Shown here one piece after another: positions 6,673-60,038 of a stretch of 64,000 nucleotides of DNA. The stretch lies in assembly GCA_029553475.1 (NCBI GenBank), contig JAKPKV010000126.1, forward strand, positions 1-64,000. The letters are read 5' to 3'. Within the stretch, counting starts at the first letter, position 1, and the number at the start of each line of letters is the position of its first letter. The stretch comes from Armatimonadota bacterium (GTDB lineage: Bacteria > Armatimonadota > Hebobacteria > CAIYQO01). The notes under the pieces were generated by a model. It was not told the DNA's origin. It saw nothing but the letters and a program-made list of their open reading frames with translations, and made no database searches. The translations under genes were made by a program, and so were the position numbers.

Positions 6673-6702
6673 ATCATTTACCATGGACGATGGGTGTCTG
6701 TG

Positions 6703-6793
6703 GTAGGGAACGCCCTCCGTGGCGTTCCGGTTCCCGTATCTCCACCCGGTGTGCCAACGTGCGCCCCGGAACGCCACGGAGGGCGTTCCCTAC
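6703..6793. repeat. Paired-hairpin (BIME-like) element, copy A1
   Basis: Two inverted hairpin arms, GGAACGCC-N6-GGCGTTCC at 6707-6728 and 6768-6789, separated by a 39-base spacer and bounded by GTAGGG...CCCTAC. The last bases of the element supply the stop codon of the adjacent RAYT gene. Other copies are at 7373-7460 and 11553-11643. Confidence 0.85.
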
Positions 6794-7347
6794 CACTCAT
6801 CAACGATTGCCGAGTTGGGATATTCGTCCCATGTCTCACATAAGCCTTTGCGTACAGGATTGTTCATCGTATAACGAACCGATTCCTCGACGGAATCGTT
6901 ATACCGGATGGCATGGTCGTAACTGCTCTTTTGCCAGAGTACCCCCTGGCCGCCATATGACCACCATATTTTGTTTGTCGTATAGGACTTGAAGTAGCTA
7001 ATCTGCTCAAGGACGCCTTCGAGTATCTCCCCTCGTGCCCCGGCATTGATGACTCGCCGGAATTGATCCGGCAGTTGGAGTACAAAGTGAAGATGGTCGG
7101 GCATCAAACAGTAACAAAAAAGTCGCCATTGATGCTTCGCGCGGTACCAGAGGAGAGCCTCGATGACCTTTCGTGCGATGGCTTCATTCAGAAATGGACG
7201 CTGGTGTTGCCGAGCGCAGATTGTGAAAAAGAACTCACAATCACTCTCGGTGTACCTCTCGAGCGCCAGGCGATGAAGTTTTCGTTCGCGTGTTTCATCA
7301 TCACGCGCATTCAACAGAGCAATGATTTCATCATAGTGTTGAAGCAT
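6790..7347 (-). CDS. REP-associated tyrosine transposase (RAYT, IS200-like Y1 HUH)
   Basis: A 185-residue protein with the HUH-family core: MPDHLHFVL gives His85 and His87, SYFKSYTTNK supplies candidate catalytic tyrosines (Tyr118 or Tyr122), and the RAYT tail WQKSSYDHAIR...VRYTMNNPVRKGL is clear. RAYTs are domesticated relatives of IS200/IS605 transposases that nick single-stranded DNA at REP hairpins and spread them. Start ATG 7347 is chosen because further upstream the frame runs into the repeat at 7373-7460. The gene is bracketed on both sides by paired-hairpin elements, and the TAG stop is formed by the left element. Base composition is visibly lower in GC than its neighbours, consistent with recent acquisition. 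It looks intact. Confidence 0.9.
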   Translation of the reverse strand: MLQHYDEIIALLNARDDETRERKLHRLALERYTESDCEFFFTICARQHQRPFLNEAIARKVIEALLWYRAKHQWRLFCYCLMPDHLHFVLQLPDQFRRVINAGARGEILEGVLEQISYFKSYTTNKIWWSYGGQGVLWQKSSYDHAIRYNDSVEESVRYTMNNPVRKGLCETWDEYPNSAIVDEW

Positions 7348-7372
7348 AGCCACGCGCTTTCGCTTTATTGTA

Positions 7373-7460
7373 GTAGGGAACGCCCTCCGTGGCGTTCCGG
7401 TTCCCGTATCTCCACCCGGTGCGCCAACGCGCGCCCCGGAACGCCCTCCGCGGCGTTCCC
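7373..7460. repeat. Paired-hairpin (BIME-like) element, copy A2
   Basis: Arms at 7377-7398 and 7438-7459, the same spacer as copy A1 with a few changes. Unlike A1 and A3 the right arm has the CTCCGC loop in direct rather than inverted orientation. It lies 25 bases upstream of the RAYT start and 8 bases beyond the stop of the beta-helix gene. Confidence 0.85.
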
Positions 7461-7468
7461 GGATGGTC

Positions 7469-8554
7469 TTACCGTTGGTCCGACGCCCAGATCGCCTTCT
7501 CGCGGTCGGTGTAGAGATTGCCGACGTTGTCGGCGATGATGACGCCGTCGCGATGCTCGCCGAGATCGTGGACGAGTTCGGTGAGGGCGCCGATGTGGAG
7601 GGTGTTGTCGCGGACGATGGCATGCTGCAAGGCGCGCAGCACCAGGCCGTATTCCGGCGAGTTCACCCCGCCGCCGTCATCCTGGCCCACGCACATGCTG
7701 TTGCCGGTGAAGACCAGGCCGTGGCAGCCCTCCAGGCGGGCGTGGCAGCTATCCAGCGGCTCGGACACCCATTCCGGCTTGCCGCTGCGGTAGATGACGT
7801 TGCCGGTGATGGTGAAGCAGAGGCTGGGGGAGCCGCCGTTGGGGCGCAGGCTGATGCCCGGGCCGCCTGAGCGGTCAATGTAGTTGCCGGTGATGTTGTA
7901 GTGGCTGCCGCCGAGGATGCGGATGCCGCCGTTGCGGTTCCACTCGATGCGGTTGCCGGTCATGGTGATGGAGGCGTTGGCGGCGTCCGCCATGTAGCCC
8001 GCCCCGCCGTTGCCGCTGAACCAGTTGTCGAGGATGAAGGCGTCCCAGCCGCGCACGTAGAGGCCGTTGCCCGTATTGAAGATCACCTCGCAGCCGCGCA
8101 TGCTGAAGCACCACACGGGGTCGAAGCGCACGCCGTCGCCGGTGAAGTGGCTGATGTGGCAGCGCTCGATGCGCGGGGTGTCTTCCTCTTTCTTGTCGTC
8201 CTTCGGCCCCATGTAGATGCCGTGAACCCCTGCGCCCAGCCCGGCGCCGTGCAGGGTGAGGCCGTTCACCGTGGCGCCCACCGTGCCGGTGATGTTGATG
8301 AGACAGGCCGCCGCCGGATCGTTGAGCTGCAATACCGACCCGCCGCCGGAGCGATAGCCCCAGGTGGCGTTGCCGACGAGGCCGGTGTGCGGCGGCATCT
8401 GCAGCTCGCCCACCAGATAGGTGCCGTCCGGCACGTAGACGGTGCCGGTGGTGTTGCCGGCTTCCGCCAGCGCGGCGCGGAAGGCCGCGGTGTCGTCGGT
8501 CTGCCCGTCGCCTTTGGCGCCGAACTTGGTGACGTCTAACCGATCAATGCTCAT
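7469..8554 (-). CDS. Pectate-lyase-superfamily right-handed beta-helix protein
   Basis: A 361-residue protein starting MSIDRLDVTKFGAKGDGQTDDT, the conserved opening of the Pectate_lyase_3 family, followed by about 10 parallel beta-helix coils (repeated ITGN, ITMTGNRIEWN, HYNITGNYIDRSG motifs). Family members include polygalacturonases, phage tailspikes and epimerases; no signal peptide is seen, and catalytic residues cannot be assigned. Start 8554 has an AAAGGAACTCGC ribosome binding site; the longer frame lacks one. It lies 23 bases after the URO-D-like gene and is the last gene of a three-gene operon (GH20-like, URO-D-like, beta-helix). Confidence 0.8.
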   Translation of the reverse strand: MSIDRLDVTKFGAKGDGQTDDTAAFRAALAEAGNTTGTVYVPDGTYLVGELQMPPHTGLVGNATWGYRSGGGSVLQLNDPAAACLINITGTVGATVNGLTLHGAGLGAGVHGIYMGPKDDKKEEDTPRIERCHISHFTGDGVRFDPVWCFSMRGCEVIFNTGNGLYVRGWDAFILDNWFSGNGGAGYMADAANASITMTGNRIEWNRNGGIRILGGSHYNITGNYIDRSGGPGISLRPNGGSPSLCFTITGNVIYRSGKPEWVSEPLDSCHARLEGCHGLVFTGNSMCVGQDDGGGVNSPEYGLVLRALQHAIVRDNTLHIGALTELVHDLGEHRDGVIIADNVGNLYTDREKAIWASDQR

Positions 8555-11440: not shown

Positions 11441-11518
11441 GGTCGCTCCTGTCGGGAGTCAGCGATGCCTTATGCTAGCGCGTTGGCGCGGGAGCGTCAA
11501 CCGTGTAACGATTAAATG

Positions 11519-11679
11519 TAGTGGGTTGTCACGCTCCCGTGCCGCGTCCATCGTAGGGAACACCCTCCGTGGCGTTCCGGGGCGCACGTTGGCACACCGG
11601 GTGGAGCTACGGGAACCGGAACGCCACGGAGGGCGTTCCCTACGATGGACGCGGCACGGTACATCGTGACGACCCGGTA
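11519..11679. repeat. Nested palindrome with paired-hairpin copy A3
   Basis: The BIME-like element (11553-11643, arms 11557-11578 and 11618-11639) is in the opposite orientation to A1. It is enclosed by further inverted flanks: GTGCCGCGTCCATC before and its complement after, and outer ends TAGTGGGTTGTCAC (11519-11532) and GTGACGACCCGGTA (11666-11679). The same TAGCGGGTYGTCAC end occurs at 30116 and 43933. It occupies most of the 345-base gap between the divergent genes. Confidence 0.75.
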
Positions 11680-11723
11680 CAGGGAGCGATGACCGTCAGC
11701 GGGCATTGCGCTGCCCCCGGTTA

Positions 11724-30087: not shown

Positions 30088-30356
30088 GGGGCCGCGGAGT
30101 TGCACTCCGCACGAGTAGCGGGTTGTCACGATGTCCTCTGTGTAGCAAACCAGCCCGGGGTAGTCCGCGCCCTCCGCGGCGCGTGGTGACGCATTGTTAC
30201 CTCGTGCCCGATGACGGTGGTGTCGGACACCGTTGCGCATGTTGGTCACACGCGCCGCGGAGGGCGCGGACTACAAAGCAAGATGCAACATGACGACCCG
30301 CTTACAGTTCAACGACAGGGTGCGGTCACTCGTGCGGAGTACAACTCCGCGGCCCC
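30088..30356. repeat. Three-level nested palindromic element (family B)
   Basis: Outer arms GGGGCCGCGGAGTTG...(30088-30115) and 30329-30356 match at 27 of 28 bases, and each is itself a GCGGAGT-N3-ACTCCGC hairpin. A middle level begins TAGCGGGTTGTCAC (30116-30129) with counterpart 30282-30304. Inner arms 30161-30185 and 30249-30273 are perfect 25-bp complements holding the core CGCCCTCCGCGGCG. It fills most of the 29987-30394 gap between rpiA and gnd; there is no gene. Confidence 0.85.
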
Positions 30357-43849: not shown

Positions 43850-44200
43850 GTTCGCGTCTCCTTCGTACTCGTCATCGTACTCGTACTCGAATGCGGGCTT
43901 CGATTTTTCACAGCGTGTCTGATCGCCAGGTGTAGCGGGTCGTCACCTTGTACCTGGCTCTGTCGTCCGCGCCCTCCGCGGCGCGTGTGACCAACATGCG
44001 ACACCGTGTCCGACAACACCAGCGTCGGGCACCAGCCTTCGCTAAAGCTGCGGCTGACAAGCGGTGGAGCAATGCGTCACCACGCGTCGCGGAGGGCGCG
44101 GACGACACGGCAAGCAACACAGCGCGCGGCTGCAGCACAACCGTTTTACGATTTTTCGAGTACGATGACGATGACGAGTACGAGGGATACGCGCACCCTC
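43850..44200. repeat. Composite inverted element (family B copy inside TACTCG arrays)
   Basis: The 589-base gap to 44342 has no gene. TACTCG/GTCATC arrays at 43866-43890 and, inverted, 44158-44186 form the outer arms. Between them TAGCGGGTCGTCAC (43933-43946) and inner arms 43965-43987 and 44081-44103 (one mismatch, core CGCCCTCCGCGGCG) enclose a centre matching the complement of 30186-30250 with an extra insert of about 40 bases. Confidence 0.75.
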
Positions 44201-59527: not shown

Positions 59528-59649
59528 ACCCGTACACTCCTTTCCAAGATGAAGTATCATGCGCGCAACTCCGGCGAGGTGGGCTACCACGTCGTCACTG
59601 CGGCGCAGAACTGATGGGCTCGGCATCGGTTGATGCCGCCTGGCCGGAG

Positions 59650-59867
59650 CGGAAGGTTCCGAAAATGGCCTGTTTTCGGAAACCAGCATACCCGGCACGG
59701 GCCGCCCTCGTCAAGCATTTCAAGCATTTGCCCCCCACTACTCCCTGTACCGCCGCCGGACAGCGCCCGTCGGCGGCACCGTGCGCCCCATTCGCGCTTA
59801 ACGGGACGCCAGATATCCAGTTTTTGCCCGCTGGTTTCCGAAAACAGGCCATTTTCGGAACCTTCCG
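59650..59867. repeat. 38-bp perfect inverted repeats with hairpin arms (family C)
   Basis: Left arm 59650-59687 and right arm 59830-59867 are exact complements 142 bases apart. Each arm holds the hairpin TTCCGAAAA-N7-TTTTCGGAA. It lies in the 59528-60093 gap, which has no gene but holds a promoter at its far end. Confidence 0.85.
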
Positions 59868-60038
59868 CGCAGGCACGACCAGGGCCAACGACACCAGCGG
59901 CTCCCCGGTTATCCATCCGTGAAAGGGCCGGGGGGCGGCCGCGGGCGCGTCCAGATTGGCCGCGAAGCGCTCCGCCGTGAGTCTCTCCCCGGCGGCAAGG
60001 CCGGAACGCACGGGCGTCGGACGCTTTTAAAGCATTAA

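Follow-up and report, generated by a model that had tools for sequence, protein, structure and literature searches.

The window, a 64-kb part of a 5.27-Mb genome in 194 contigs (~99.5% complete), carries a gene at 6790..7347 on the minus strand that starts with an ATG at 7347, stops at 6790-6792 and encodes a 185-aa protein. Judged by its sequence, this is an intact RAYT/TnpAREP gene, and the preliminary description of an intact HUH-type RAYT holds. The protein passes NF047646, the curated NCBIfam model for REP-associated tyrosine transposases (84.2 bits, cut-off 80), for which its closest relatives (clade A, below) score 67-80, and matches Pfam Y1_Tnp weakly (21.9 versus a cut-off of 23). The first match of its 61-sequence profile is the E. 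coli TnpAREP structure (PDB 4er8, E=1e-36). A structure model predicted from the same 61-sequence alignment, which we used instead of a 4-sequence alignment that gave a pLDDT of 39, reaches a mean pLDDT of 90.3, and Foldseek places 4er8 at the top, followed by the IS200/IS608/ISDra2 transposases (2f4f, 2vjv, 2xm3).

The HUH motif of the protein is DHLH (H85/H87) and its catalytic tyrosine is Y159, which is found in 61 of 61 aligned sequences; H85/H87 are found in at least 90%. Five residues, W138, Q139, D144, H145 and R148, match by position the GTAG-contact residues of PMC6006769, with E100 replaced by D. Aligned with its relatives, the window RAYT keeps all catalytic and guide residues and has a full-length C-terminus (...VDEW against ...VDPW). 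The protein shares the HUH Y1 transposase fold with IS200/IS605 insertion sequences but differs from them in that no tnpB was seen alongside the gene, the gene is present in one copy, and the IS200 transposase model NF033573 gives 16.8 bits, under its cut-off of 55. A related-locus search of genome contigs with the RAYT alone as query gave no match, and searches of plasmids and viral contigs gave, respectively, distant matches only (<=30%) and none; the REP hairpin, as opposed to the RAYT, was found in two viral contigs. The GC content of the gene is 49.5% and its GC3 55%, compared with 67% GC for the window and a GC3 of ~90% for the neighboring genes.

Both flanks of the gene hold elements of a 91-nt class, each with two hairpins that face each other and have the form GTAG-GGAACGCC-N6-GGCGTTCC, the pairs being built on GTAGGGAACGCC-N6-GGCGTTCC. 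The REPIN 3' of the RAYT (6703..6793) consists of REP-A hairpins at 6703-6728 (+) and 6768-6793 (-) in perfect inverted orientation, with 31-nt arms that are 100% complementary. The stop codon of the RAYT (TAG, 6790-6792) is the TAG of this element's GTAG, as had been noticed before, and the protein is not shortened thereby. The REPIN 5' of the RAYT (7373..7460) has one perfect REP-A hairpin at 7373-7398 (+) and a degenerate partner at 7438-7459 (GGAACGCCCTCCGCGGCGTTCC), with its loop in the same sense and no CTAC foot. The preliminary description had given both sides the same arms; the degeneracy of the second hairpin on the right had been missed.

The REP-A hairpin has a perfect 8-bp stem and a 6-nt loop, with predicted folding energies of -9.0 kcal/mol for the 26-nt strand (z -4.6) and -41.1 kcal/mol for the 91-nt pair (z -10.7). 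A GTAG foot on hairpins in inverted pairs is the arrangement that characterizes GTAG REPs and REPINs. We rejected a terminator role for the RAYT-flanking hairpins because no T run follows them. A third REPIN copy lies at 11553..11643, inverted relative to the first as originally described and 95% complementary to it over 98 nt, but it forms the core of a larger element at 11517..11681.

REP copies in the genome and the outer element

The pattern GTAGGGAACGCCN6GGCGTTCC has 32 exact matches in the 5.27-Mb genome, whereas its reversed control has 0; given these counts and the fold energies, the recurrence of the hairpin is not chance. From sequence searches we count ~36 REP-A sites, mostly 91-nt pairs, together with a ~126-nt class whose spacer differs and with solitary hairpins, often with a double foot. 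The element is thus not confined to the three sites first seen in the window, and the RAYT is flanked by REPs that recur in its genome, as is typical of RAYT/TnpAREP genes.

About 30 of the ~36 REP-A sites lie at the center of a longer element with inverted repeats, TGTAG[CT]GGGTCGTCACG...CGTGACGACCCGCTACA, typically of 110-220 nt. In the window, this outer element occurs at 11517..11681, with the third REPIN as its core and terminal inverted repeats TGTAGTGGGTTGTCACG ... CGTGACGACCCGGTACA; at 30115..30304, with a core that belongs to a different REP family, REP-B (GTAGTCCGCGCCCTCCGCGGCGCG); and at 43932..44106, with a REP-B core and an unrecognizable right terminus. Further copies have REP-B or a non-REP sequence as their core. 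Of 24 outer elements, 7 are bounded by a direct repeat of 5-7 nt, compared with 0.9 on average and 5 at most in 1000 shuffles. Most are 6 nt long with a central TA (NNTANN): CCTAAC, GGTAGC, GCTACC, CGTATG and TCTAGC. Inverted termini combined with a target duplication are the hallmarks of a MITE.

Contig C186 holds a resident IS of 1024 bp (L392 528-1551) with perfect 30-bp TIRs beginning TGTAGTGG and a 6-bp duplication (ATTAGG); its transposase has an integrase core and is nearest to IS481. Its ORF of 236 aa has NF033577 as best match, under the cut-off (141 versus 224 bits); the IS is inserted in a MITE copy, and the ORF is possibly truncated. IS481 elements make 6-bp target duplications of the NCTAGN type. 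Target duplications typically accompany DDE transposition and not the single-strand transposition of the IS200/IS605 type.

Because of the 6-bp duplications and the ends of the resident IS481-like IS, we interpret the outer element as an IS481-like MITE that has acquired REPINs by capture. Like IS481-family MITEs, it is non-coding, has inverted termini TGTAG...CTACA and a 6-bp duplication with central TA, and shares its first eight bases with a resident IS. Unlike them, it has a REPIN (REP-A or REP-B) or another palindrome as its core, and the terminal bases in common with the candidate mobilizer are only the eight of TGTAGTGG. Most REP dispersal in this genome was probably effected by this DDE-type MITE carrying the REPIN. 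The preliminary description had inferred that the RAYT moves these elements; since most copies sit inside the MITE, their spread would not simply be the work of the RAYT.

Further repeats adjoin these elements. At 30088-30356 of the window the nesting has three levels, a REP-B pair (30160-30274) in the MITE (30115-30304) in an inverted pair of GGGGCCGCGGAGTTGCACTCCGCACGAGT and its complement, and at 43850-44196 the MITE remnant with REP-B lies between 42-nt inverted arms of GAGTACGATGACGATGACGAGTACGAG-type sequence. Elsewhere, at L295, L307, L333 and L336, runs like CCCTAACCCCTAATCCC and a recurrent TAGCGCGCGCCC/CGTATCAGGACAACCGCC palindrome lie next to or within MITE copies. The window also contains inverted arms of 45 nt, 96% complementary and spaced 142 nt (GGTTCCGAAAATGGCC...), at 59643-59874 and a long intergenic GAC/GAT triplet tract at 2162-2215.

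Comparison with a same-genus genome, G001, in which a neighboring gene is 93% identical at the protein level, shows that G001 has neither the RAYT cassette nor the third copy. The alignment runs up to 6673 and resumes at 7469, so the segment with the RAYT and both REPINs (6674..7468) is absent at the orthologous site, which has 47 nt in place of 795. Around the third copy, and with it the MITE, the alignment runs to 11516 and again from 11733, with 31 nt in place of 216. An important caveat is that G001 is a single sister and a 78%-complete MAG, and that one empty site fits insertion or deletion. Because the G001 sites are empty and the GC and GC3 of the RAYT lie below those of its surroundings, we favor a recent gain of the cassette and the third copy in the window's lineage, with deletion in the sister as the alternative.

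The REP and its RAYTs in other phyla

An exact scan of named genomes for the REP listed at least 115 stretches. Among the matches listed are Gemmataceae, Pirellulales and other Planctomycetota MAGs, a Thiosymbion, one Armatimonadetes, and complete or isolate Clostridia (Petroclostridium X23, Anaerobacterium). Planctomycete genomes hold 247, 244, 108, 61, 47, 25 and 23 copies and Clostridia 20 and 16, compared with 32 in the window's own genome, 1 in its genus, 0 in its family and 0 for the reversed control. Within the phylum, 3 of 150 relatives have the REP, with one copy each; among 294 evenly drawn Planctomycetota, it occurs in the seed genome only. Copies from different phyla agree in all 20 specified bases, and their loop is often the same (CTCCGT).

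The hairpin had been taken for the lineage's own family. This does not stand, as the exact hairpin is multi-copy in Planctomycetota and present in Clostridia, and GTAG REPs and RAYTs outside Proteobacteria have been published (PMC3733652, PMC6006769). The 24 described GTAG REP families include Planctomycetes and Verrucomicrobia (PMC3733652) and resemble the present REP in their GTAG foot, short stem-loop, opposite-orientation dimers and RAYT association; one of them could be this hairpin. A literature search for the sequence strings of the hairpin gave no match, although a text search would miss the consensus sequences in a figure of PMC3733652. What our analysis establishes beyond those families is the identity of hairpin and RAYT clade across two phyla.

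We gathered ~125 RAYT-like proteins from relatives and from 15 REP-bearing genomes. REP-A lies immediately at both gene ends of the window RAYT (L172), of L229 and L250 from Pirellulales, and of L240 from Gemmataceae. These RAYTs are mutual best matches, 46-70% identical, whereas the best own-phylum RAYT is ~38-40% identical, and they form one clade, clade A (SH-aLRT 94 in a 118-row tree, 100/95 in a careful 49-row tree). The nearest outsider is L173, from the window's own phylum and flanked by a different REP, GTAGGGGCGGGCGTCCCTGCCAGCCC. In G064 (L332 600-840, 2400-3320), a tandem 30-nt array and GTAGGGGCGGGCGTCCCTGCCAGCCC REP flanks surround the RAYT sister to clade A.

A clade-A RAYT is present in 4 of 16 REP-bearing genomes, which were picked for holding the REP, versus 0 of ~442 others searched. 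A spread uncorrelated with the RAYT among relatives, the outcome that would have spoken against the preliminary description, is thereby mostly refuted, but in the REP-rich planctomycete MAGs G153 (244 copies), G156 (108) and G154 (61) no clade-A RAYT was detected. The clostridial copies are accompanied by RAYTs of a different clade (L247) or by no RAYT, and we rejected them as part of the same REPtron because their RAYT clade differs. In L247, a near-identical hairpin precedes the gene and also occurs within it; in this Anaerosolibacter MAG (L247 1118-1681), the second REP is compensatorily changed and is placed in frame, with the HUH motif on one side and the Tyr motif on the other, an arrangement reported for TnpAREP subclass 2.4.

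That subclass (Bertels group 4) has the motifs NH[IFV]H / WQ / YIxNNP, double-foot REPs and REPs inside the gene (PMC6006769). The window RAYT agrees in WQ, in -NNP and in the double-foot REPs of its genome, but its HUH motif is DHLH and no REP lies inside the gene; its motif set (DHLH, WQ, YTMNNP) matches no single published subclass. To judge from the tree and the REPs, the cassette was probably acquired laterally by this lineage. Because the sister RAYT L173, which roots clade A within the window's own phylum, comes from that phylum, the tree is compatible with transfer in either direction.

The dinucleotide CT is the reported cleavage site of TnpAREP (PMC8266576). In 179 distinct upstream contexts from named foreign genomes, nearly all planctomycete, the bases before GTAG are C in 86% and T in 92%, and conservation ends at -3. 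In the window's genome, CT precedes GTAG in 1 of 46 REP-A hairpins, although CT next to GTAG is reported for several TnpAREP and is not a strict part of the definition of a GTAG REP or REPIN. With so few CT feet, RAYT-driven movement in this genome appears doubtful.

A model for the cassette and its REPs

Taken together, the system resembles known RAYT/TnpAREP-REP systems (E. coli TnpAREP 4er8; PMC6006769, PMC8266576) in its HUH motif and single tyrosine, its W-Q/D/H/R guide-contact residues, the flanking GTAG hairpins in inverted pairs, the many dispersed copies, and the CT before GTAG in planctomycete members. It differs in its phylum, its perfect 8-bp stem and 6-nt loop, the lack of the CT foot in the window's genome and the embedding of most REPs there in a DDE-type MITE. 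The layout is that of a REPtron, in which cognate REP hairpins lie on either side of a domesticated HUH transposase of the IS200/IS605-like kind. We hypothesize that this RAYT binds single-stranded GTAG-tagged hairpin DNA, cuts at the foot via Y159 and moves REPINs. The cassette would have arrived by lateral transfer within a RAYT clade common to Planctomycetota and would have been inserted, or have survived, after the split from the sister species. Its REPINs may then have been captured as cores of the IS481-like MITE (TGTAG termini, 6-bp NNTANN duplication), whose transposition, presumably by an IS481-type transposase, would have produced most of the ~36 REP sites. We hold this reading as a whole to be likely.

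If the RAYT had instead dispersed every copy, the outer arms (TGTAGCGGGTCGTCACG...) would be part of a larger RAYT-mobilized GTAG element and there would be no separate MITE. The outer termini do likewise start with (T)GTAG, PMC3733652 describes 'TIR-type' repeats surrounding RAYT-like genes as well as composites of REP and TIR, and the gene for one Y1 transposase of this genome (L027) is ~85 nt away from an outer terminus. However, several outer elements have 6-bp central-TA duplications (direct repeats of at least 5 nt in 7 of 24), a finding that led us to downgrade this candidate; moreover, the resident IS481-like IS has the same TGTAGTGG ends and a 6-bp NNTANN duplication, and unrelated cores (REP-B, non-REP) occupy the same outer element. 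We therefore consider dispersal by the RAYT throughout unlikely.

Somewhat less probable still is that the REPs beside the RAYT are inert leftovers, the RAYT being domesticated or decaying with no present link to a REPIN that spreads only as MITE cargo. The missing CT foot of the genome's own copies, the degenerate hairpin at 7438-7459 and the persistence of the REP in G153, G154 and G156 without a clade-A RAYT would fit such a history, but the RAYT is intact with its catalytic and guide residues all in place, the gene has REPs directly beside it in four genomes from two phyla, and the cassette insertion looks recent. That the same palindrome arose in each phylum by convergence, for example as transcription terminators, and that RAYT and REP pair without shared ancestry, we regard as highly improbable: the terminal GTAGGGAAC/GTTCC also goes with other RAYT clades (L262, L247), but the match of 20 of 20 specified bases, often with one loop, in different phyla that share a RAYT clade at 100/95, the missing T run and the empty reversed control all argue against it.

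New here are a REP common to two phyla with one RAYT clade and the capture of its REPIN by a MITE, as we read the outer element. A REPtron may cross phyla with every base of its hairpin conserved while its transposase diverges to ~50% identity, and in the new host a DDE-type MITE may capture the REPIN, which an unrelated transposase then multiplies, so that a REP family could expand in the absence of its RAYT; to this more general statement we give an even chance. The way in which REPs spread is still an open question, and according to PMC8266576 there is no evidence that tnpAREP is mobile; here a RAYT-plus-REP cassette is present in one species and missing at the orthologous site of its sister. 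The REP recurs alongside sister RAYTs in a second phylum, which offers a natural test of REP-RAYT specificity. MITE passengers would be a second route of REP multiplication and would confound counts that credit every copy to the RAYT.
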